Origin: Buxus sempervirens
Taxonomy: Eukaryota; Streptophyta; Magnoliopsida; Buxales; Buxaceae
NCBI GenBank assembly: GCA_947561395.2
Contig: OX387185.1
Location: 31,662,213 to 31,726,212 of the forward strand
Length of the DNA: 64,000 nt
Direction: 5' to 3'
Shown here: positions 14,601 to 64,000 of the stretch, one piece after another
Position numbering within the stretch: position 1 is the stretch's first letter
Layout: each line of letters starts with the position of its first letter
Notes under the pieces: generated by a model
Database searches by the model: none
Told to the model about the DNA's origin: nothing
The model's input: the letters and a program-made list of their open reading frames with translations, nothing else
Made by a program: the position numbers and the translations under genes

Positions 14601-17600
14601 GGAGTTCATGTGTCCCATCTTCAGTTTGCCGATGATATTATTGTCTTCTTGGAGGGGAGTATTGAGCAAGTGGATGTGTTGAGGAGTATCTTATTTCAGG
14701 ATTGAGAGTTAGGTACTGTTTGGTAACGCTTTTCAGAAGTGATTTTTTGCTTTTGAAAGCAAAAATTGCTTTCGAAAGCAAAAGTGCTGTTTGATTATGC
14801 ACACATGAAGCAATTTATAAGAAGCAAAAAAGCAATTTCATTGCTTTTCAAAAGAAGCATAGAAATGTTGCTTCTCACTTTAACCATAAATTTGCTTTCT
14901 TGCTTCTAAAACCTTCAACACAAAACTAGACCAGGAAAAAATTGACCCATCATGTCTAATCCAACCCGAATAAACGGGTTCTGGTTGACCTGTGTAATAG
15001 TTGGGTCGGCTTCAGGTTGGGGATTTAGTAACCCATTCGTATTCGGGTCAAATCGAATCTAGCTTGATAATAATCCGTTAAACCCGATAATGACCTGTTT
15101 AACACGATAATGATCTGTTTAACCCGATAATGACCCACTTAACTCCATAATGACCCGTTTCACACAATAATGGTTCGTTTAACACGATAATGCCCTGTTT
15201 AACCAGATAATGACTCATTTAACCCGATAATGACCCGCTTAACCCAATAATGATTTGTTTCACCCGATAATGACCCGTTTAACTCGATAATGGCCCATTT
15301 AACTCAATAATGACCCGTTTAACCTGATAATGACTCGTTTAACCCTAAATTGTATCACTAATTCACGTTTTTTCTATTGGTGTATTTTTTATAATTAAAA
15401 AATACAAAATTTTAATCGGGTTGGTGGGTTGAACTCGATTATTGGCGAGTTGGGTTTGGTTTTGGGTTTTCCCAACCCACCAATAAATAGATTCAACTTG
15501 AACCAATCCGATTATTGCTCAACCTATTACAATATACGTCAAGTATATTTTTAAGTAGAATGCATCAACTGTTTACGGTAGTTTTATATGATAGCATAAA
15601 AACAATTTATATGCTACTATAGTTACCAAACATGTTTTTTTGCTTTTTAGCAGCAAAGCAAAAGTTTACCAAATCGCTTTACTTCAACAAAAGATCTTCT
15701 GAAAAGCAGAAAAGTACTTTTTTGCTTTCAAAAGCAAGAAAGCAAAAGCATTACCAAACGGAGCCTTAATTTGCAGAAGAGTTTGGTAATAGTGATGAAC
15801 ATGGAAAGACATTCAGTAGGGGTTATAGCAAGTGGACTTGGATATTCAGTTGGGAATCTACCTCTTTCATATTCAGTAGGTCTATTTCTTTTTGGGAGCC
15901 GGTTATTAAGAGGATGGAAAGGCGGTTGACTAATTGGAAAAGGAATTATTTTTTATTTGGTGGGAGGATCACCCTTATTAAGTCGGCCCTTTCTAATTTA
16001 CCGATGTACATGTCTATGTTTAGGATGCCCAAGAGGGTAGTGAATGTCATTGAAAAGCTTCAAAGGGACTTCTTGTGGGAAGTTGGGGGGAGTAAAGATC
16101 ACTTAGTGAAGTGGAAAGTTGTCTGTTTGAGTACGGAGATTGGTGGGATAGATTTAGGGAATCTCTTTGCTCAAAACTCCTCATTACTTTCAAAATGGCT
16201 TTGGCGTTTCAATATTGAGAGGAATAGCCTTTGGTGTCAAGTGATTGGATCCAAGTATGGTCTTACAAATAATGGTTGGGATGTAAGTGGGAGAACCCTC
16301 ACTTTTGCTCTCAGGAAGAATGTGGCTCCTTTAGATGCTTTCTTCCAGTCCTATGTTCGTTTTTTTTTGGGTTTGGTACCTCTATTTTGTTTTGGCATGA
16401 CATTTGGTGGGATTCGTCGGCCCTATCCATGATGTTTCCTAGTCTTTTTCAAGTGGTTTCTTTCCCTGATGCATTGGTTTGTGATGTTCTTTCCCCTTCT
16501 TTGGTTGGTCTCAATTGGAATCTTACTTTTCGAAGGGAGTTGCGACTTTGAGTTAATGGAATTGTCATCTTTGTTGGAGTCCTTGAAGGAGGTACCCATT
16601 GTTGTTTCTCATCTCTTCAGTAGGTGTAGGATCTCTAGTGCTCCCATTTCTCATGGGTCCACTACTTTAGATTGTATTCTCTCTATGCTTTATTTATAAT
16701 ATATACTTAAGAAAAATATATACTTAAGAAAAAAGAAATCTAAATTTTGTGATAGCATAATGGAAACTAAAAACAAATCTAGGTTCGTAGAGTTCGAGTT
16801 GTAGAAGTTAAAGATGCTATAGTCAAGTGAAAGTAGGAAAAGCCTTGTGCCCGGATGACATCCCTATAGAGGCATGGAAGTGCGTGGGAGATATTGGCTT
16901 GGTTGAATAAAATATTTAGTGAAATTTTAAGGATTGGGAGCATGAGAAATTTTTGGAGGCTTAATACAGCAATATCCATATATAAGAATAAGGGAGATGT
17001 GCAAGACTGCTCAATTTACCATGGAATTAAAATTATGAGCCACACTACGAAATTGTAGGATAGAGTGATAGAACTTATATTAAGACTAATAACTAGAGTT
17101 CACAAAAACCAATTTGGATTTAGGCTTGGAATGTCTACTACATAAGCTATATTTTACTTAGGCAATTAGTTCAGAAGTCTAGAGAAAAGAAAATAGCTTT
17201 GCATATGGTTTTTATTGATTTGGAAAAAAAGCATATGATAGGATTTTAAGAGAATTAATTTGTTGGACTTTGTATAAAAAAAGGTGAACTAATAAAATAT
17301 ACTGATGCAATTAAGGATATATGTGCGTGACCCTTAACTAAAGTAAAAACTGTTGGTGGTGAGATAACTGGGTTTTCAGTTAAGATAGGTTCGCACCAAG
17401 TGTTAGCTATCAGCCTTTATCTATTCGCTTTAGTGATGGATGAGTTGACAACTTATATTCGAGATAAGGTGCTTTGGTGTGTGTTATTTATAGATGATGT
17501 AGTCTTGATAAGTCAGACTAAAGAAGAACTAAATGTTAAGTTATAATTGTGGACAGATACCTTAGAATCAAAGGGTTTTTAAAATAATTCATGCAAAGAT

Positions 17601-26600: not shown

Positions 26601-29600
26601 CTTTTTATTTGCATCATACGTTCTTAACATCCAGTTAGGCTTGCAGATGCCCCGGTTGACTCCCTAAATTTTCAATTCTTCTTTATTTTTCCATTAATTA
26701 CAAAATTTATTGATTAGTTTCTCTTACATTTCCAGGGAAATGGTTCATCTAGCTATCGATGGCATTTGGCAGGTCTTTATGCTTCAGCGCTCAACACCCA
26801 GGAATGACTTCTGTCGAATCGCTGCAAAAAATGGAATACTCATTAGACTTATCAATACTCTTCATAGCTTGAATGAGGCAACTCGACTAGCTTCTGTAAC
26901 AGTTGCAGGTGGATTTCCAATAGATGGTTCAGTTGCAAGACCAAGATCTGGTCCACTGGATTCTGGCTGGGTTACTGGTATACCAAATGAAATGCCACTT
27001 TCAGGAACTGATCAACCTGATGTGCTTAAGTTGAGACATGGAGTGATCGATCATCCTTTGCCAATGGAGCCTTCACGTGCTTCTGCTTCCCATTCGCAAA
27101 GGTCAGATGTTATCATGCAAGAATCTAGATACTTTCCTGGAGATTCTGAAAAACCTCAGTCAAGCAATTTGACAATGGAAGCTTCCATTTCTTCCAAGTT
27201 GCCAGACCCAACTGGTCCAGAAGGCATTACGACTGTAGCAACCAAGGAATCAACAACTACTAAGGACTGGGAGCACCCAGAGCGACGTAAATCAGATCTT
27301 ATTCGGGCAGAAAATGACCCCAGACAGCCACGGGCTTCGAATTCTAACAGAACATCTACTGATAAGCCTCTAAAACCAATGGAAATGGCATCAAATGGGT
27401 TCCCTCCTATGATTTCACAGCAAGAGCAAGTTAGACCTCTTCTTAGCTTGCTGGAAAAGGAACCACCTTCTCGGCATTTCTCTGGTCAGCTTGAATATGT
27501 ACGCCACCTCTCTGGGTTGGAGAGACATGAAAGTATACTGCCTCTACTACATGCATCTGTTGAAAAGAAAACAAATGGCGAACTAGATTTCTTAATGGCT
27601 GAATTTGCAGGTAATTGCTTTTAGTTCCCTCTTGGTTATATGGCTTTTGCCAATATTCTTTTCTTAATCCAGTAAAATGTAAAATTCTGGAATACCAGCT
27701 TCTGATTAGACATTTTATCTTTACATTAAAAAGTTTTTTTTTTTTTTAATCGGTAAATAAGAGATAGTATTAGAATAAGAAGATCCGGGGATACAAGTAC
27801 ACAAAATGTGTACTAGGATGGTACAGAAACAGCCCCCATCTCAGGACAAATAAGAAACAAAACAGCAAGCTACATCAGGACCCCTCCCCCCCATTACAAA
27901 TCTGAAATTCTCCCTACTGTCATAGCATTGCTACTCGATCCAAGCTTAGCCATCATTTGGCTGTAACTTCATTATGCCTGTAAATTAAGGCAATGTATTA
28001 TAGATTATACCTATAAAGTATGACATGATTCATGTTACCAAAGCCGACTTGATGGGTAAGGATGCAGATAAGGATTATGATGACACTATTCAACTTATTT
28101 CCTTTTTCCAGGACAAAATATATCCTTTTTATCGTTGTCTTGTAACCTTTTGATATTGCACCAGTGGTAAATATTAGTTGGGTACCTCTATTATTTATTT
28201 AAAAGGATTTTGATGGTATTTTAATTCCTTATTTCAGAAGTTTCTGGGCGTGGAAAAGAAAATGGAAATCTTGATTCTACTCCAAGACTTTCACATAAAA
28301 CAATGAATAAGAAGGTTGGGATGCTGGGCTTTAATGAGGGGGCTGCTTCAACATCTGGGCTTGCATCTCAGACAGCATCTGGAGTACTATCTGGATCAGG
28401 CGTTTTAAATGCTAGACCAGGAAGTGCAGCATCATCTGGTCTACTTTCACATATGGTATCAACATTAAGTTCTGAAGTTGCTAAGGAATATCTAGAGAAG
28501 GTTGCAGACCTTTTGCTTGAATTTGCTGGAGCAGATACAACTGTAAAATCTTTTATGTGCAGCCAAAGCTTGCTTAGCCGGCTTTTTCAGATGTTCAACA
28601 GGATTGAGCCTCCTATTCTTTTGAAGGTAAATGTGGAGAATTTACTTGGGAATGTTAATGGTTATCTCCTCAGATATATATGACTGCATAGCATTATATT
28701 GCTACTCTTTTCTTCTTGTAGCTATTGAAGTGTATCAATCTTTTGTCAACTGATCCAAACTGCCTAGAGAATCTCCAACGGGCTGAAGCAATCAAACATT
28801 TGATCCCAAACCTTGAACTCCAAGAAGGGCTTCTAATATCTCAGATTCATGATGAAGTAAGTTTTCTTGATTTGCATATCAACTGTCTCTAGAGTTGAAT
28901 TAAATATTTCAAAAATCATGTTAAATGATTGGAAATATATTTGCCACACACACACATATGCACACACTAGATAATGCTTTTGCCATTGATATTTGTTCTG
29001 AGTACCTTTTGATAGAATCAGAAAAAAATGATCATCCAAACCAGAAATAAAAAGTGAAAAAGGAATTTGTAATTCTATCCGAGTCAGAGATAACAATTTT
29101 CTTAATATTCAAGTTCTCAAATTGTCCAGTTTGTAAAATTGTTACTTTGTTCAAGACTTGTGCAATTAAATTCTAAATAGAAATTTTACATTGTCCCAGC
29201 ATTGATTTTATTAGCATAAGAAGCATCCTTTTTTTTTTTTTTCCTCCATTCTCATATTGAACCCGAATGGCAACTGTCGCAAGAGGTGGATTCAGTGTGT
29301 TAGATATGCCAGGGATGTTATGACCAAGGTTGGAAATTTCAGATTTAGCCAGGCATGCCCAGAAAAATTTCGGGGGCATGCCGCTGGCATGCCGAGAAAT
29401 CTAGGGAAAATATATTCCCCACAATTTCTCCATCTCGGGGAAATCTGGGAAAATTTTGTCAGATTTCACTGGCATGCTGCCTCCTTTCCTCAAAATTTCC
29501 CCAATCGGGGAAGAAATTCCCAAATTTCACTGGCATGCAGCTACATTTCACGGATAAAGGTCTTTACCCCTCTATTTCTTGCTGCCGGACCCAAAAAAAA

Positions 29601-56302: not shown

Positions 56303-58695
56303 TATAATCAATTGGATCACTCATGTGGAGAATCATACATGTGTTTTTTCTTGTTTTTGTTTGTTTTTATGTGAAATATGTATGTGCAAGCATGAAGCAT
56401 GAATGAGCATATGGCAGACACCTTGTGTGGATGAGTGGGGGTGCCTAACACCTTCCCTATCCATAACCTAACGCCCTTACCCAATCTCTGGACTAAATCT
56501 CAAAGTAGAGCTACTTTAGCTCTATTTTCATTTTTTTATGCTCAATTTGGTGTCCATTCACACCTTAAACTTGAATGGTGGCGACTCCTTTGTTTTGTGA
56601 ATTCTGTGTGATGATTAGGAGGTCACATAGGTGATTTCCATGGTTTCACATTAACATCTATAACAATTTCTGTAACAACTTTAACAGAGAAAGTAGGTTT
56701 TTGTTTATCTAACTAACTTGAACAAACAGAGAAGCTTAACAGCTTTCTGTTATCTAACTATCTTGAATAGACTTAACTAACATTCCCCCTCAAACCAAGT
56801 GTGGTCAAGGATTGAACATTTAGTTTGTCTTTGAGTTCAAGAAATCTTACACCTAGGACTGCCTTAGTGAGTGTGTCAGCAACATGTCGAACTTGAATGA
56901 GACCTTGCATGACTTTCTCTTCCACAAAGTATAGATCTAACTCAATGTGTTTAGTTCGGGCATGTTGTAATGGGTTAGCGAAGAGTTGAATAGTGCTTAG
57001 GTTATCACACTAGATTATAGGAATTGTTTGTGTCGCCACTTTGAGTTCACCAAGAAGTGACTGTCACCAAGTTAACTCAGCAACTAAGTTGGTAAGACTT
57101 CTATACTTTGCTTCGGTTCTAGACCTGGAAATTGTATGCTGCTTCTTTGAATGCTAAGTTACCATATTTCCACCAAGCTACACACAATAACCTGAGGTAG
57201 ATCTTTGATCGTCAGGATCAAATGCCCAATCAGGATCACAAAACCCAACTAAGCTCAAGGATGAATGTTTCTTTAAGTGTAAGATATAATCCAATGTACC
57301 AACGAAGTACCTGAGTATTCTTTTCACTACCTGCCAATGAGACTCCTGAGGTCTTGCATATATTGGCAAACCCAATTCACACTACAAACAATTTCAGGCC
57401 TTGTTATTTTGGTGTATTGCAAAGTGTGTGCACGTCAGGAGACGCAACACATTGCAAGAAGGTCATGTGGATACCTCTTTCGGGAATGGCCCGTCGCACT
57501 CTCTGGCAAAAGCATGAAGGATCGTATGCTTTCAGGATTAGGATATAGGAAAAAGGGTAAAAAGGGGAATGGGAATCGCCACTACCTGATTAGGTACAGG
57601 TAGACACTTGGATGCCTAAAAGTTGTCTAATTAGGTGGTCTGTGCATTGAGATTTTGGTTTAAGTGCTTGGTTATGGTTTAGGGAAGTCCGTAAACACCT
57701 TGTTCCCCCCGTTGGGTGATGGGTCCCATGGGTTATCCTAGTTAAAGTTTGAGAACTCGTTTGTCTCACCCATCCTAAGCTGATATGCATATTTGATTAG
57801 GTCTGTGTGGGACGGCTTGAATGGTGTAGGTCCCTTTAGATTTTATCTTATTTTAATGTTAAGTGATCTATGTCTGGTAGTGGGCCCCATTGGAAAGCCC
57901 AAAGAATCTAAGATAGGCTAAGGGCTCCTATTTGGGCTTAATCTAATCCTAGGAGCCCTTTAGGATTTCAAGTTAAGTTTGGTTGATTATTAACTGTTTT
58001 AAAGTTGCTTCGATCTTACCCTTTAGCCATTAACCCAGTTCAGCTATAGGGGATTATGTACATAACCTCTAAGGTGGAGTGGTTACGTGTAACGCCCCGG
58101 ATCCGTGTTGTTCAATAAAGATATAACACGTCTCACGGAGGTTAGGCAAGGATCGTTAATCAATTATGATCGCTGGATAATCATCTAGCTATAACCTGAC
58201 AGAGTGCACATTTCCATTTATCCAAAATTGTAACATTTAAACTGAACTAGAATCATATGGTTCAACCCCAATTAAACTTTAATACATCTCAATAATTCAA
58301 AGTTCTCAAATTCAGAACAAGATAACCTACAAGTCTAAGGAAGGTAATAGTAATCCTCCTCCCTATAAGCCTCAGCAGGATCTACCCCAGTAATCGCCTC
58401 ACCACGAGTATCTGAAAAACAAACAAAACAAAACAACGGAGTGAGATACGAATATTTCAGCGAGTAGCACATGCATGCAGAAATAGTTGATCACAACTTA
58501 AAACTATGCATCGACAAACACTCAATACGGTTAAACAACCAACATCAGTTTCCCAAGTTCAAACCAACACTTGTTCAAATCAAACAAATCACCTCTCAAT
58601 TAAGTATGGCAACACATCGATTGGTCAATGTCATGACTATCGTTTAGTTGATAAATTAAACATGCCAACTAGACACTCCACACCTCCATGTACAC

Positions 58696-58820
58696 AGTTC
58701 CGGCCTACTCAGGGTTTCGGAACTCTGAAATGACGGCCTACTCAGGGTTTCGTCATCCAATGCAGGCCTACTCCCCGGGTTTCTGCATTGACAACCAGGC
58801 CTACTCAGGGTTTCTGGCTG
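58696..58820. repeat. Four tandem hairpins, conserved loop, different complementary stems
   Basis: Loop GGCCTACTCAGGGTTTC at 58702-58718, 58735-58751 and 58798-58814; a 19-nt variant (CTCCCCGGG) at 58765-58783. Flanking stems: AGTTCC/GGAACT (58696, 6 bp), ATGAC/GTCAT (58730, 5 bp), CAATGCA/TGCATTG (58758, 7 bp), CAACCA/TGGCTG (58792, 5 of 6 pairs). The starts of the loops are 33, 30 and 33 bp apart. Confidence 0.95.
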
Positions 58821-59502
58821 CTCTACACCGGTCGTGGCAACACACAAGGCCATGCAATTCCAACAACCAACAATAACATCACATTACTAAGCTTAAACAT
58901 CTGGATCCAGGACAAGCTAGACCAAAACAGTAAAACATCGTATAATCTCAATTCCAATATCAAAGTAAAACTATTCATTCCACATCATGTAAAACCCATC
59001 ACAGTTCATCACCTGTCCCTCTGGACCAAGCAGTATCTCAAGTAGTTTCAGCATTTTCTCATTTTCGTAACACATGCCATTCGGAAACAAAACTCAATTC
59101 ATTCATACCAAGGAAATCCTCACAATACATTTACAGTTTCCAAACAAGTGAAACCAGAATAGAATAACTCCTCAATCAAAACAGTGTATAAAACAGAGTA
59201 AATGTAACTGGTAACTCTTAGTGGTTTGGTATCCGGCACAACACTCATAAATAACCTAAACACAACTTGGAAGCTTTTAAGAAGTTCACTAAATTTTCCT
59301 CTAATATTTTCATAGGCAAAGTAGATCCCAAAGTTCCCAAAGAAGTGAATAGTGAAGTGGTTTAACCCTTAAGACACTCAATTACTCTTGGCTAAATCAG
59401 ATTTCCATTTTAGTAAGTATAATAGGGTAGGCGCTCACTTCCTGAAGTGGGCGCCAGGTGGACGTCGGTCGGCGGTAAGAAAAATAGGGTAAAAGGTTGC
59501 TT

Positions 59503-59628
59503 GCGCTCACTCGACGCTAAGTGAGCGCGAGATAGGCGCGAGCTGAGCGCCAGGTTCGCGCGAGCTGAGCGGCAGGTTTTCTAGTGCATGCGAGCTTAGC
59601 GCCGGGTTCGCGCGAGCTCGGCGGTAAG
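59503..59628. repeat. GC-rich 22-27-bp tandem repeats and 8-bp hairpin
   Basis: GCGCTCAC/GTGAGCGC (59503-59510, 59521-59528) form a perfect stem. Four units based on GCGCGAGCTGAGCGCCAGGTT begin at about 59536, 59558, 59586 and 59610. Confidence 0.8.
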
Positions 59629-60407
59629 AATAATCTTAACTAGGCATCTACCTCCTAGGTGAACGCGAGTAGGCGCCAGGTTCGCGGATACCCCCTGCGA
59701 TTTCCAGTTCTCTGTAAATTCGAGATCTATAACTCTGGCTGGTTTGTTTCGGTCTGTTATTGCTCCAATACCCTCCTAGTACTCCCAGAAGACTTCCCAA
59801 CCATATTTGGATTTAATCTAAACACTTTTAATTTCAAGATAAAATTCAATCTTCGACTCTGTTTCATGTCATTCCAGAAAACCAGAAAAAAACCAGAAAA
59901 CTCATACATCACTTAAAATACAAACCATGCATAAGAATAAGTTCACGAAAACATCAAACACAAAACCCAGTTGTAAATCAGTGCTACTCACATGAAAGCG
60001 CTTATTCCAGAATACCAAAACCTCGGCCGATCACCACTCCGGCCACGCACGCGAGTACAGAATCTACCCAAACAATTCGTCTCGAGTAGAGAGAAATAAC
60101 CCACTCAACTTTAACTCCAAAATCCGTCTCTTACCCCTTGCGATGCTTGTTCTTCACGAGCAGAGCCCTAATCGCCACTCCAGCCGAAATCGCTCACTTC
60201 CTCTGATATCCAGGCTAACGAAAATGTTTCCGTAAGTATAGTACGCGTATTCTCATAAACCCCAAAACCCTACTTACCCTTTTTAGTATACTTACCTTGA
60301 TACATACGCCGCTCGATCCTTCTCCCATTTCCTTGATCCCATGCACGCTGGCCCACTGAAAAATCCTACATGTTCCGACCACTTAGGTTAACAAGTGCCC
60401 AAGCTAT

Positions 60408-60425
60408 ATATATATATATATATAT
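60408..60425. repeat. (TA)n microsatellite
   Basis: An uninterrupted TA run in LTR 4. Confidence 0.9.
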
Positions 60426-61221
60426 TTAATACTAATAATAATATAATTTTTCCCGAAAAATGGCTATATAACGCCTGTACATACGAGTATGGGCTAAGCC
60501 CTCAAACCACAAAATCACCTGATAAACACAGTTTATATATCAAAATAAATAACTAAATAAATAAATAACTCACAAAAAAAATCAGGGTCTTACATTACGT
60601 ACATAATCTTAACTTTATCACTTTATTGTGTTTAAGTTAAAAAGATCAGAAGTAAGTTTTTTTATGCTCTTTAGTGAGCCGGGATGGTCAATGGGCCCTT
60701 GGATGGGCCCCACAGTGGATACCTTTGATTTTATTATCGTTGTTTTAATTTGGTTCCAAGTGAACTAGGGATGGGCTTGGGGCCCATTTCCTAGGCATAT
60801 GTTTAGAAAATCCAAGGCTTTTGTGGTTAAGGGATGAGTATCCCCTCCATTTTTGGTTTGAAAGGGTGGATTCTCTTTAAGTAAAGAGATAGGGCTCGGT
60901 AGGCCCACACCCTATGTCATGGCCAAATCATCTAACCTACCAAGCATATTTCAATTTGGGCCTCTTTGAGGTGTAGCCCTTAATTAAGTTCATTTTGTTT
61001 ATTTAATTCATTTATAATGAGTCGAAATGCGTGGAACTGGTTGGAAGGCCCACCAGAATCATGTTCGGGCCAATGAAGAGTCCAAAAATCCCAAAACCCT
61101 ATAGGATTTGATTGGTTTTATTTTAAAAGGATATCAAACAATAAAAGGTCCAAAAAATACTTTTCTGGATTTTTCTGGGTTGGACTAAAAACACAGGTCG
61201 GTCGACCTAGTGTCTATTCAT

Positions 61222-61280: not shown

Positions 61281-62750
61281 ATGAACAAAATGTGCTTGAC
61301 CGACCTGAGTTTTCAGTCAAGCATAGAAAATCACAGTTTTGCATCTTTTGGTAGAGGCTAGGTTGCACTGGTCTTTTAGGGAAAACCAGGGCTTCTGTGG
61401 ACCCTTGGGCTGGTCCACAGTGGTCTAAGATTGGGGGTGGACCTAGTTAAGCTAGTTGGTTGATTTTAATATCAAAAGAAATGTGGAAATGAGGCTGGGG
61501 GCCTCCTCCCACCACCATGGATTGAAATCCAATTTAATAGACAGAGGCGAAGAACCTCTATTGTGGTTTTTAATGGCTATCTCATTCACATTCCTATGAA
61601 GAGAAAAAGAGGTACACCTAGTTGGTCTTAGCTAAAGCCCACTTGGAAACCATTCTCACATACCCATTCAATGATCAAAACAAAACATGAAAGAGAAAGC
61701 TAAATAGACCATTAAAAGAATGCTAATTATAGCGAAATGAATATGTGCTTCTTGCTTGTGTTTCATAAGGATATGGATCATGTTCAAAGTGAAGTGATTA
61801 GACATGCTTTCATAGTGGGAATCCATGCATGTACTTCATGCTTAAATTATACTAAAAAGGGGCATGTGAATCAGTCAAACTTGGGGAAAGTGGCATAGTG
61901 GTGTGTGACATGCTTTTTGCGCACAAGCAAATCACACATCCATGCAACCATTCTTGATAAAGTGCTAGAAATGCATAAGTAAGCACTTCTGCTGAAGTGA
62001 AAAATAGAGAAAATTCCCATAAAAGTGCTTAATTATGTAATGGGATACACAAGAGAGCCTAAACATTAAATTGAAATTATCTTGGGATTAGTAGGCTTAA
62101 TTATGCATTGGTTTGTGCTTAATATTTTGTTAGCAATGCATATGATTTCTTTGTTTAAAATGTCACAATTTACTTTCTTACCCTCAACTATTAATTGGTT
62201 TTGTTTTGTTAATAGGGAGTAAAATAGGGAGTTAGAACATTGAAGGAGCATTGCTTTGGTGCTGATGTGGCTAACGACCATGCTGATTTGGAGAACATAA
62301 TGTCAGAAACTGTTGGCCATGAACGAATGGGGCATTGAGTAGCTGGAGGATGAGGATTTGAGGGGATTGAAGAGCTAGGGGTCGTTCAAGAGAGAGGCAT
62401 TCAGCTGGAGCACGGCAGCTGGATCAAAGAGGAGCAGAAATTTTCTTCTTAGTTTTGCTGTGTTCTTTTCATATACTTTGAAAAACTTTTGTTGGAGTCG
62501 GTTTGTAAAACCCCATCCTGGATTATACCTTAATTATTAAGCTTAATTATCTAAAGTGTGATTATTAGACAAATTAAGTATTTGTGTTATGAAGATGGGG
62601 TAAATATGGATTATAGTTAAGGATTTAGGGAAATCAAATTGAACTTTATTGAAGTTATTAAGGTAATCGAAGTTAGTGCTATGTCTTAATTACAATTAAC
62701 TAAAGTATCCTCTAATTAGATCTAATGAATTGGAAATCAAATTCTGAAAA

Positions 62751-64000
62751 ATTAGAGTTAAGTGTACCTAAAGTACCTTCAAAGTATACCTAGGGTACCC
62801 CAAAGTATACCCCAGGTACCCTCCCGATTAACACTAGAAGCACACCTATACATTACTCAAGGTATCTTCCCAAATACCACTAAAGTACCTCTTGTATTAT
62901 TCAAGGTACCCCCATTGTATACCCAAAGTACATCCATGTACAACTCAAGGTACCACCCAAGTATACCTAGAGTATACCAAAGTATTACCCAAGGTACCAC
63001 CCAAATAGGGTACACCCATGTATTACCCGAAGTACCCCCATGTATTACCCAAGGTACCACACAAGTGTTGTTTAAAGTACCCCCTAATTATACCTAAGGT
63101 ACCCCACTTGTATCTCTAAGATACCTCCATTGTATGCCCAAAGTACACCCCAAGTATTACTCAAGGTACCCCATTGTATACCTAAGGTACACCTAAGTAT
63201 TATCCAAGGTACTCCCATTGTATGCCCAAAGTACACCCAAGGTATCCCACTGTTTCACCTAAGGTACCCTACTTTAATTGCCTAAGGTACCCCTTTGTTT
63301 ACCTAAGGTATCTCCTTGTGTTTGCCTAAAGGTACCCCTGTGTTTATCTAAGGTATCCCCTTGTGTTTACCTAAGGTACCCCTTTGTTTACCTAAGGTAT
63401 CCCCTTGTGTTTGCCTAAAGGTACCCCTGTGTTTATTTAAGGTATCCTCTTGTGTTTGCTTAAGGCACCTCACTCATATTGGTTAAGGTACCCCACTGTT
63501 TTGCCTAAGCTACCTCACATATATACTTAAAGTACCATTTATATTACCTAAGGCACCTCACTCATATTGGCTAAGGTACCCCACTGTTTTGCCCAAGGTA
63601 CCCCATTTGAATACCTAAAGACCTAAGGTACTTCACTTGTATTGCCTAAGGTGTCCCTTTATTTTAACTAAAGTACCCTACTGTCTTACTTGAAGTACCC
63701 CATTGTTTAGCTAAGGTACATTCCCTTATACAGCTAAGGTACCCCCTTTATATAACTAAAGTACCTCTAACAAACCTAACGTACATCCCTTATATTACCT
63801 AGAGTACACCCCTTGTATTCCCTAGAGGTACTCTTCTCATATAAGTAAGGTACCCCCACTATTTTACCTAGGGTACACCCCCCTATATAGCCAAAGTACC
63901 CCCTTTGTCTAACTAAAGTTATCCCTATATAAGTAAGGTAACCCCCCCACTGTTTTACCTAAGGTACATTCCCTTATACAGCTAAGGTACCCCCTTTATA
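62751..64000. repeat. KpnI-site-rich minisatellite, about 50 units, runs off the window
   Basis: A degenerate 20-28-bp unit of form CCTAAGGTACCCC-(N)-TTGTATTA is repeated to the last base. Many units contain GGTACC; others have AGTACC or GGTATC. Higher-order copies are visible: GTTTACCTAAGGTATC and TTATACAGCTAAGGTACC recur (for example 63721 and 63972). Open frames across it reflect the repeat, not a gene. Confidence 0.95.

Follow-up and report, generated by a model that had tools for sequence, protein, structure and literature searches.

Analysis of a 64,000-nucleotide stretch of the Buxus sempervirens genome (the window) revealed a solo LTR of a Ty3/gypsy retrotransposon that carries four small hairpins (Table 1). 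Read in its sense orientation, the LTR begins with TGTAAGACCCTGATTTTT at 60594 and ends with GGATCCGGGGCGTTACA at 58088. The first-pass annotation had placed the hairpin array inside an LTR, which was borne out by the 2507-bp unit with its TG...CA ends, the TTACG duplication, and the PBS and PPT of full-length relatives. Elsewhere in the window, diverged 22/45/89-bp repeats containing AAGGTACCCC form a long array at 62760-64000; it comes after TGTAAAACCCC at 62504, which resembles another LTR start. Fourteen 20-bp tandem repeats of GATAATGACCCGTTTAACCC with an 80-bp higher order lie at 15066-15345, and a 308-aa open frame at 26698-27624 appears, from its sequence, to resemble part of a plant protein-kinase gene.

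Table 1. Features of the LTR and its hairpin array, in window coordinates
Feature	Position	Strand	Remarks
Solo LTR of Ty3/gypsy retrotransposon, 2507 bp	58088..60594	-	TG...CA ends, 5-bp target duplication
Target-site duplication TTACG, copy 1	58083..58087	.	
Target-site duplication TTACG, copy 2	60595..60599	.	
17-nt loop GGCCTACTCAGGGTTTC	58702, 58735, 58798 (exact); 19-nt variant at 58765	+	plus-strand coordinates
Hairpin H1	58791..58821	-	first in sense order; stem GCAGCCA/TGGTTGT, two G.U pairs, loop GAAACCCTGAGTAGGCC
Hairpin H2	58758..58790	-	stem CAATGCA/TGCATTG, 19-nt loop variant GAAACCCGGGGAGTAGGCC
Hairpin H3	58729..58757	-	stem GATGAC/GTCATT, outermost pair G.U, 17-nt loop
Hairpin H4	58696..58724	-	stem AGTTCC/GGAACT, 17-nt loop
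TATA-like run, putative promoter	60405..60424	-	sense position ~171-190; pattern only, sense strand scanned
Putative splice donor AAG/GTAAGT (AAGGTAAGT)	60290..60298	-	only MAGGTRAG match in sense LTR; pattern only
Acceptor-like module TATTCGTATCTCAC...polypyrimidine...TTTTTCAG/ATACTC	58398..58485	-	CAG at 58414-58412; pattern and recurrence

Host LTR and anatomy of the array

Both LTR ends were recognised in 14 of 20 genomic loci with relatives (L092-L102, L104, L106, L107), and in all 14 the 5-bp duplication lay right at both ends, identifying them as solo LTRs; the first or second LTR base is mutated in L099 and L100, and the 5' end was unrecognised in the remaining six loci. Among the 13 best-matching copies (L090-L102), both ends were found in 11, all of them solo LTRs; full-length elements do exist. 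Two pairs of arrays lie 7.36 kb apart and represent elements with an internal region, and near-identical LTR ends adjoin the PBS and PPT in full-length relatives. In both elements examined, the sense LTR end is followed by GAGA and then by the PBS TGGTATCA(G/A)AG(C/A), an initiator-Met primer site, and in the one element examined for a PPT a purine tract precedes the other LTR. Because the PBS follows the LTR 3' end and the purine tract precedes the LTR 5' end, the LTR sense is the minus strand of the window, and the earlier reading of the array on the plus strand had to be reversed.

A search of one full-length relative, recovered in pieces (L150, L152), disclosed Retrotrans_gag (1.3e-07), zf-CCHC (2.4e-05), and SH3_Tf2-1 (2.5e-10), all above cut-offs. 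The same pieces gave rve (6.6e-05) below its own cut-off, with integrase-like and SH3-like sequence before the 3' LTR, and the CCHC knuckle of a relative's Gag weakly matched HIV-1 nucleocapsid (E ~2e-4). The array-bearing LTR is thus Ty3/gypsy, with its sense on the window minus strand. By the look of its ends, it may belong to the Tekay/Del chromovirus lineage; the pieces of the full-length relative (L150, L152) held no match to a chromodomain.

The four hairpins are near-contiguous at 58696-58821, with a common loop and differing stems. On the minus strand they run H1, H2, H3, a 4-base spacer, and H4, with H1, H2, and H3 abutting; in many relatives the H4 5' arm has one additional bulged base. 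The four units with an invariant loop (one a 19-nt variant) and paired stems described in the first-pass annotation were confirmed: of the 24 arm positions nearest the loops, 22 form Watson-Crick pairs (binomial ~1e-11), and the maximum in 400,000 Monte Carlo draws of arm pairing was 17/24. One stem, CAACCA/TGGCTG, had been called complementary, which fails on the plus strand through an A.C mismatch but holds on the minus strand, where the pair becomes G.U and folding closes all four units. Arms taken from different units pair at 1-4/6 positions, compared with 5-6/6 within a unit. With up to three mismatches allowed, the 17-mer matched three times in the window against 0.08 expected, and this count together with the arm-pairing statistics ruled out a chance origin of the array. 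A coding origin was considered in view of plus-strand spacings in multiples of 3 and one open frame, and was rejected given spacings of 31, 30, and 34 in other copies.

In the predicted fold of the 17-nt unit, the variable stem leads to a closing G-C pair, beyond which come an asymmetric internal loop (AAAC/C), a mini-stem (CCU/AGG), and the tetraloop GAGU; in the 19-nt variant of H2 the predicted mini-stem is reduced to CC/GG. Over a 151-nt stretch, stability was unexceptional for the composition on both the minus strand (z -1.47; 15/200 shuffles folded as well) and the plus strand (z -1.91; 8/200 shuffles). Since the fold energy is unexceptional, the evidence for the array lies in its pattern and not in its energy. 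Rfam covariance models at the gathering threshold, including hammerhead ribozymes of retrozymes, had no match in the window.

Abundance and paired changes among genomic copies

The exact 17-nt loop occurs 10,236 times (5132 + 5104) in the 676.5-Mb assembly, a count of loops and not of arrays, and the reversed 17-mer used as a control gave 0 in the same assembly. Among the matches listed, the loop places were all on contig C1, many of them clustered at array spacing. Loop patterns in a viral contig collection returned 13, 0, and 13 stretches, the first 13 with stems of 0-1 pairs and the second 13 being other repeats or sequence of coding type, many of them resembling collagen by eye; bacterial genome contigs returned 0 and 5 stretches, the five lacking a stem by eye. 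All of these were set aside as unrelated.

Copies were compared in sets. Alignment A1 comprises the window plus 43 of 56 arrays; seven were dropped for having three hairpins or another build (L032, L074, the second array of L089, L111, L117, L121, L129) and six as close copies (L063, L066, L068, L096, L097, L098). The position-chosen arrays were taken in order from the genome loop listing, plus the window, and about half of two locus batches among them came from the Y..R listing, in which one hairpin has Y..R; 58 distinct four-hairpin arrays were kept and 15 other chains left out. A 65-array set served for the tree. Because all loci were obtained through the loop or array, the comparison of loop with arm conservation (0.039 vs. 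0.077) was set aside.

In the majority of sampled copies the four stems are the same by descent, with decay chiefly C->T and G->A. In A1 (43 distinct rows), whose pair counts are biased by rows picked for unusual flanks (L110-L129) and rows found by window similarity, pairing held in 96.4% of 1754 cells, and sliding the partners gave 22-46%; both-side changes affected 40 cells, compared with 13.2+-2.8 in shuffles (0/500), and pairs with a both-side change 9 against 5.5 (6/500 shuffles). The 58 position-chosen arrays were 97.4% paired, against 95.3+-0.2 in shuffles and 20-39% in slides, with 32 both-side cells against 13.9+-2.4 (0/500 shuffles) and five pairs with a both-side change against 2.6 (24/500 shuffles). 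Leaving out the H2 pair, eight both-side cells remained against 1.6 (0/500 shuffles); these shuffles, like the others, ignore relatedness and are descriptive only.

The independent stem changes are few and mostly at pairs adjoining the loop. At the loop-adjacent pair of H2 (H2p1), 26 of the 58 arrays have A with T and 32 have C/T with G/A (20 C-G, 8 C.A, 3 T.G, 1 T-A), none crossed; at the equivalent pair of H1 (H1p1), 53 have A with T and four C/T with G/A, with one exception. At both pairs A<->C goes together with T<->G (A-U<->C-G), and these are not deaminations. On the tree of 65 arrays and 165 flank columns, pair-type changes numbered at least four at H1p1 and at least three at H2p1, counts biased by rows included for unusual flanks (L110-L143) or found by window similarity. 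In five of the 43 distinct A1 rows H1 has gained one base in each arm, A with T in 5/5, and the H4 stem alternates between AGT(N)TCC/GGAACT (N = A, T, G or absent) and ATATCC/GGATAT. Double changes from C-G to T-A at -2/+2 were seen in H1, H2, H4, and the ATATCC form (20 of 26 sites examined), and the both-side changes of H3 were nearly all of this kind, at a CpG pair; they are weak evidence because two deaminations can produce them. Likewise, the flank pattern K..M at -1/+1 (n = 70: 66 T..A, 2 T..C, 2 G..A, 0 G..C) and at -2/+2 (T..A in 26/26) was not rated strong because two transitions from C-G yield T..A anyway.

These data partly support the view that the stems change in a paired way while the loop sequence stays. 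The first-pass annotation had proposed a constant loop with covarying stems, and had named four stems shared by all copies through descent as one outcome that would refute it. Paired changes do occur, both between orthologous hairpins and between array builds, and some both-side changes are independent; yet the four stems are mostly the same by descent, so that the proposal stands in part. An explanation by inherited decoration would have the array, once functional or born by chance, now copied along with an abundant LTR, its paired changes being mostly chance double deaminations. That reading accords with the stems shared by descent in most sampled copies and with a weak excess of C-G->T-A doubles at C-G pairs (4 vs. 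1.3 expected in 58 arrays, 2 vs. 1.2 in 28). It does not account for the linked A-T<->C-G double transversions (58/58 at H2p1, 57/58 at H1p1) or for an array region that can be aligned between divergent LTRs, and we consider it unlikely.

The same loop was also found in tandem repeats with periods of 117 bp (L106), 62 bp (L111), and 64 bp (L165), on stems such as ATTCC/GGAAT, CGTTCC/GGAACG, and GTTTC/GAAAC. L106 is an LTR of 2708 bp, flanked by a TTTTG duplication of its own. Units fold singly as a hairpin in 1/4 cases in L106, 3/4 in L111, and 3/3 in L165. In this second array format (L106 at 1800-2240 sense, L111 at 1-260, L165), CACTCC...GGAGTG flanks the common loop and GACCCATGAT recurs. 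In L033, L078 (the L108 place), L088 (the L107 place), and L089, a second, partly duplicated array begins ~210-250 nt after the first, and these LTRs carry the ATATCC/GGATAT stem. Comparison of divergent LTRs by BLAST left blocks at the array region (sense ~1650-1985, exceeding the hairpins), the acceptor-like module, and the 3' end, with a further block at sense ~760-1330 common to L033, L105, and L107; between L106 and the window LTR, only loop-sized matches and the acceptor module are left. The array-region block is partly ascertained because copies were found via the loop, which does not apply to the acceptor module.

Chimeric hairpins, with the left arm of one unit and the right arm of another, were noticed in L032, L074, L117, L129, L149, L164, L169, and L170. 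The units between the two arms have been lost or duplicated, an outcome to be expected if recombination takes place within identical loops. A mutational origin of the stems, the alternative named in the first-pass annotation, would involve template switching or snap-back synthesis that copies one arm onto the other, making or repairing perfect stems without RNA selection. Such a mechanism can create and maintain perfect hairpins (PMC8794818) and would turn a two-sided insertion or the replacement of a whole stem into a single event. It leaves unexplained, however, the same loop between units and between array builds; a G.U fixed inside H1 (56/58) is not expected from arm-copying, and unpaired chimeric hairpins persist (L032, L074, L117, L129, L149), indicating that pairing is not automatically restored. 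We regard this origin as quite unlikely.

Strand, splice signals, and a possible function

Fixed G.U pairs on the sense strand were found at H1p4 (56/58 arrays), H1p7 (56/58), and H3p6 (57/58). Only H1p4 is internal, H1p7 and H3p6 ending their stems. One step outward from the H1 stem as drawn, 64 of 65 arrays have A.C. Strand-biased decay was considered as proof of RNA selection because G.U outnumbered A.C in A1 (71 to 37) and in a set of 28 position-chosen arrays (33 to 17); these excesses were dropped because the 58 position-chosen arrays gave 51 against 36 (p 0.13), with flanks in which sense-strand C->T (0.107) exceeds G->A (0.056). Loop-flank sites with Y..R numbered 6806, and the matches listed comprised nine T..G, one C..A, two T..A, and otherwise C..G. 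As G.U does not exceed A.C beyond the mutational bias, the genomic copies decay more or less neutrally, which is how dead insertions should behave. The argument for sense RNA draws on the LTR orientation, the one internal G.U, the subfamily differences, and the constant loop.

Pairing might alternatively matter in DNA, with the array acting as a cluster of palindromic protein sites in cis-regulation, or the array might be a source of small RNAs that feeds silencing. The arms of H3, if joined, would read ATGACGTCAT, which we take to resemble a bZIP-like site, and the lack of strand-specific decay in the 58 arrays is compatible with pairing at the DNA level. Maize Sirevirus LTRs offer a precedent, since their clustered palindromes are reported to show an excess of small RNAs (cited in PMC10760457). 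Against this, the loop is constant and the arms are variable, the array is far downstream of the TATA-like run, and the internal G.U of H1 pairs on one strand only, which leaves the explanation unlikely in our estimation.

The array lies between the sole good donor-like site and the acceptor-like module, the latter being the one strong acceptor-like site found by a pattern scan of the sense LTR, and it is probably within an intron of the LTR sense transcript. Given this position, unspliced genomic RNA should carry it and spliced RNA should lack it. Comparison with 10 other LTR copies showed the acceptor module as a separate BLAST block from sense 2110 in seven, among them L108, where the block stops before the CAG; L105 has a short block at 2176-2198, and in L109 and L032 a longer block runs through the module. 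The CAG is present in nine of the 10 copies, and the array of L106 is likewise upstream of an acceptor-like module. About 45 nt after the acceptor-like CAG, GTGAGT occurs in L103, L104, L106, L107, L033, L032, and L089, and the stretch in between resembles a small internal exon common to several LTR copies. The window LTR instead keeps an open frame ending in YREEDYYYLP.

A nuclear-export or splicing-control element could fit this arrangement, with the repeated loop recruiting a host RNA-binding or export factor for the intron-retaining genomic RNA, by analogy with the CTE of Mason-Pfizer monkey virus. The position between donor-like and acceptor-like sites and the repetition of one loop agree with such a role, and Mason-Pfizer monkey virus does recruit NXF1-NXT1 directly to structured RNA (PMC7551171). 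On the other side, the splicing is a prediction only, the open-licence literature yielded no plant counterpart, and the window has no Rfam match; this role seems rather unlikely, and we rank it next after packaging, which is the most likely.

Judging by its layout, the row of hairpins looks like a docking array read by a protein on the element RNA. A fixed loop, a free stem, several copies, the sense strand, and an intron-like position would together fit a protein-read tag of unspliced RNA only. We tentatively favour, as the best of the readings, a cis-acting sense-RNA element whose loop is read by the CCHC knuckle of the element's own Gag, that is, a multivalent packaging (perhaps dimerisation) signal. 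The wider description, a multivalent, loop-read RNA array in an LTR intron that serves as a self-recognition tag for packaging or export, with the loop fixed across LTR families and the stems free, is possible, and we offer it with greater reserve.

Under the favoured packaging reading, transcription through the array would produce a sense LTR transcript on which several small stem-loops present one loop. The loop sequence would be the part that is read, and the stem would only prop the loop, free to change while pairing. An intronic array would be retained in unspliced genomic RNA and removed by splicing from the rest, and the most likely reader would be the element's own Gag, acting via its CCHC zinc knuckle; multivalent binding could then lead to packaging and perhaps dimerisation. 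The PBS/PPT orientation, the both-side changes, the other array builds, the recurring blocks, and a Gag with a CCHC knuckle argue for a sense-RNA element; the ordinary fold energy, the stems mostly shared by descent, and the single folding unit (1/4) in L106 argue against one. The distance of the array from the TATA-like run (~1.6-1.7 kb downstream) also weighs against the packaging reading, since a leader signal would be expected closer by if R/U5 is not long.

Relation to known systems

Retroviral packaging signals are tandem stem-loops read by nucleocapsid zinc knuckles. The array would resemble them in its several stem-loops with a common loop, its place downstream of a donor-like site, and a Gag with a CCHC knuckle; it differs in its much longer constant loop (17 nt) and in its location in the LTR, far from the predicted RNA start. 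In the Mason-Pfizer monkey virus CTE, too, loops are repeated in a retroelement RNA whose intron must be kept, but these are two internal loops of one long stem (PMC7551171), whereas here there are four separate hairpins. Both are functional analogies and not memberships.

Among plant elements, the Ty1/copia element BARE is comparable in that its RNA falls into separate pools and that signals for dimerisation and packaging have been reported for it; its intron is in gag and not in the LTR, and the available parts of the source contain no constant-loop array (PMC3735527). That source also says that fairly little is known of packaged RNA outside BARE (PMC3735527). A study modelling LTRs omitted plant Ty3/gypsy, as LTR length varies too much (PMC3601003), and the main text of a 2025 review of plant LTR retrotransposons does not contain 'hairpin', 'stem-loop', or 'secondary structure' (PMC12786077). 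How plant Ty3 RNA is marked for packaging or export thus seems poorly known. The first-pass annotation knew of no LTR module of this kind, and in the open-licence literature we likewise found no account of an LTR array that combines a constant loop with variable stems. If the interpretation is true, no element of this type had been described for plant Ty3 retrotransposons before, within the literature searched. A 17-nt loop with more than 10,000 occurrences on several stems is a concrete testable candidate, for which the decaying copies provide a natural mutation set.

The Sirevirus palindromes are the nearest plant case. They are alike in being clustered short inverted repeats in plant LTRs that fold into hairpins; they belong to Ty1/copia and have the motif CACCGGACNNNGTCCGGTG with constant arms (PMC10760457), in contrast to the Ty3/gypsy setting, constant loop, and variable arms found here. 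The array is not a Sirevirus feature, as the full-length relative is Ty3/gypsy by its domains and the arms are not constant. It can be placed among the structured, repeated cis-elements of LTR retroelements.
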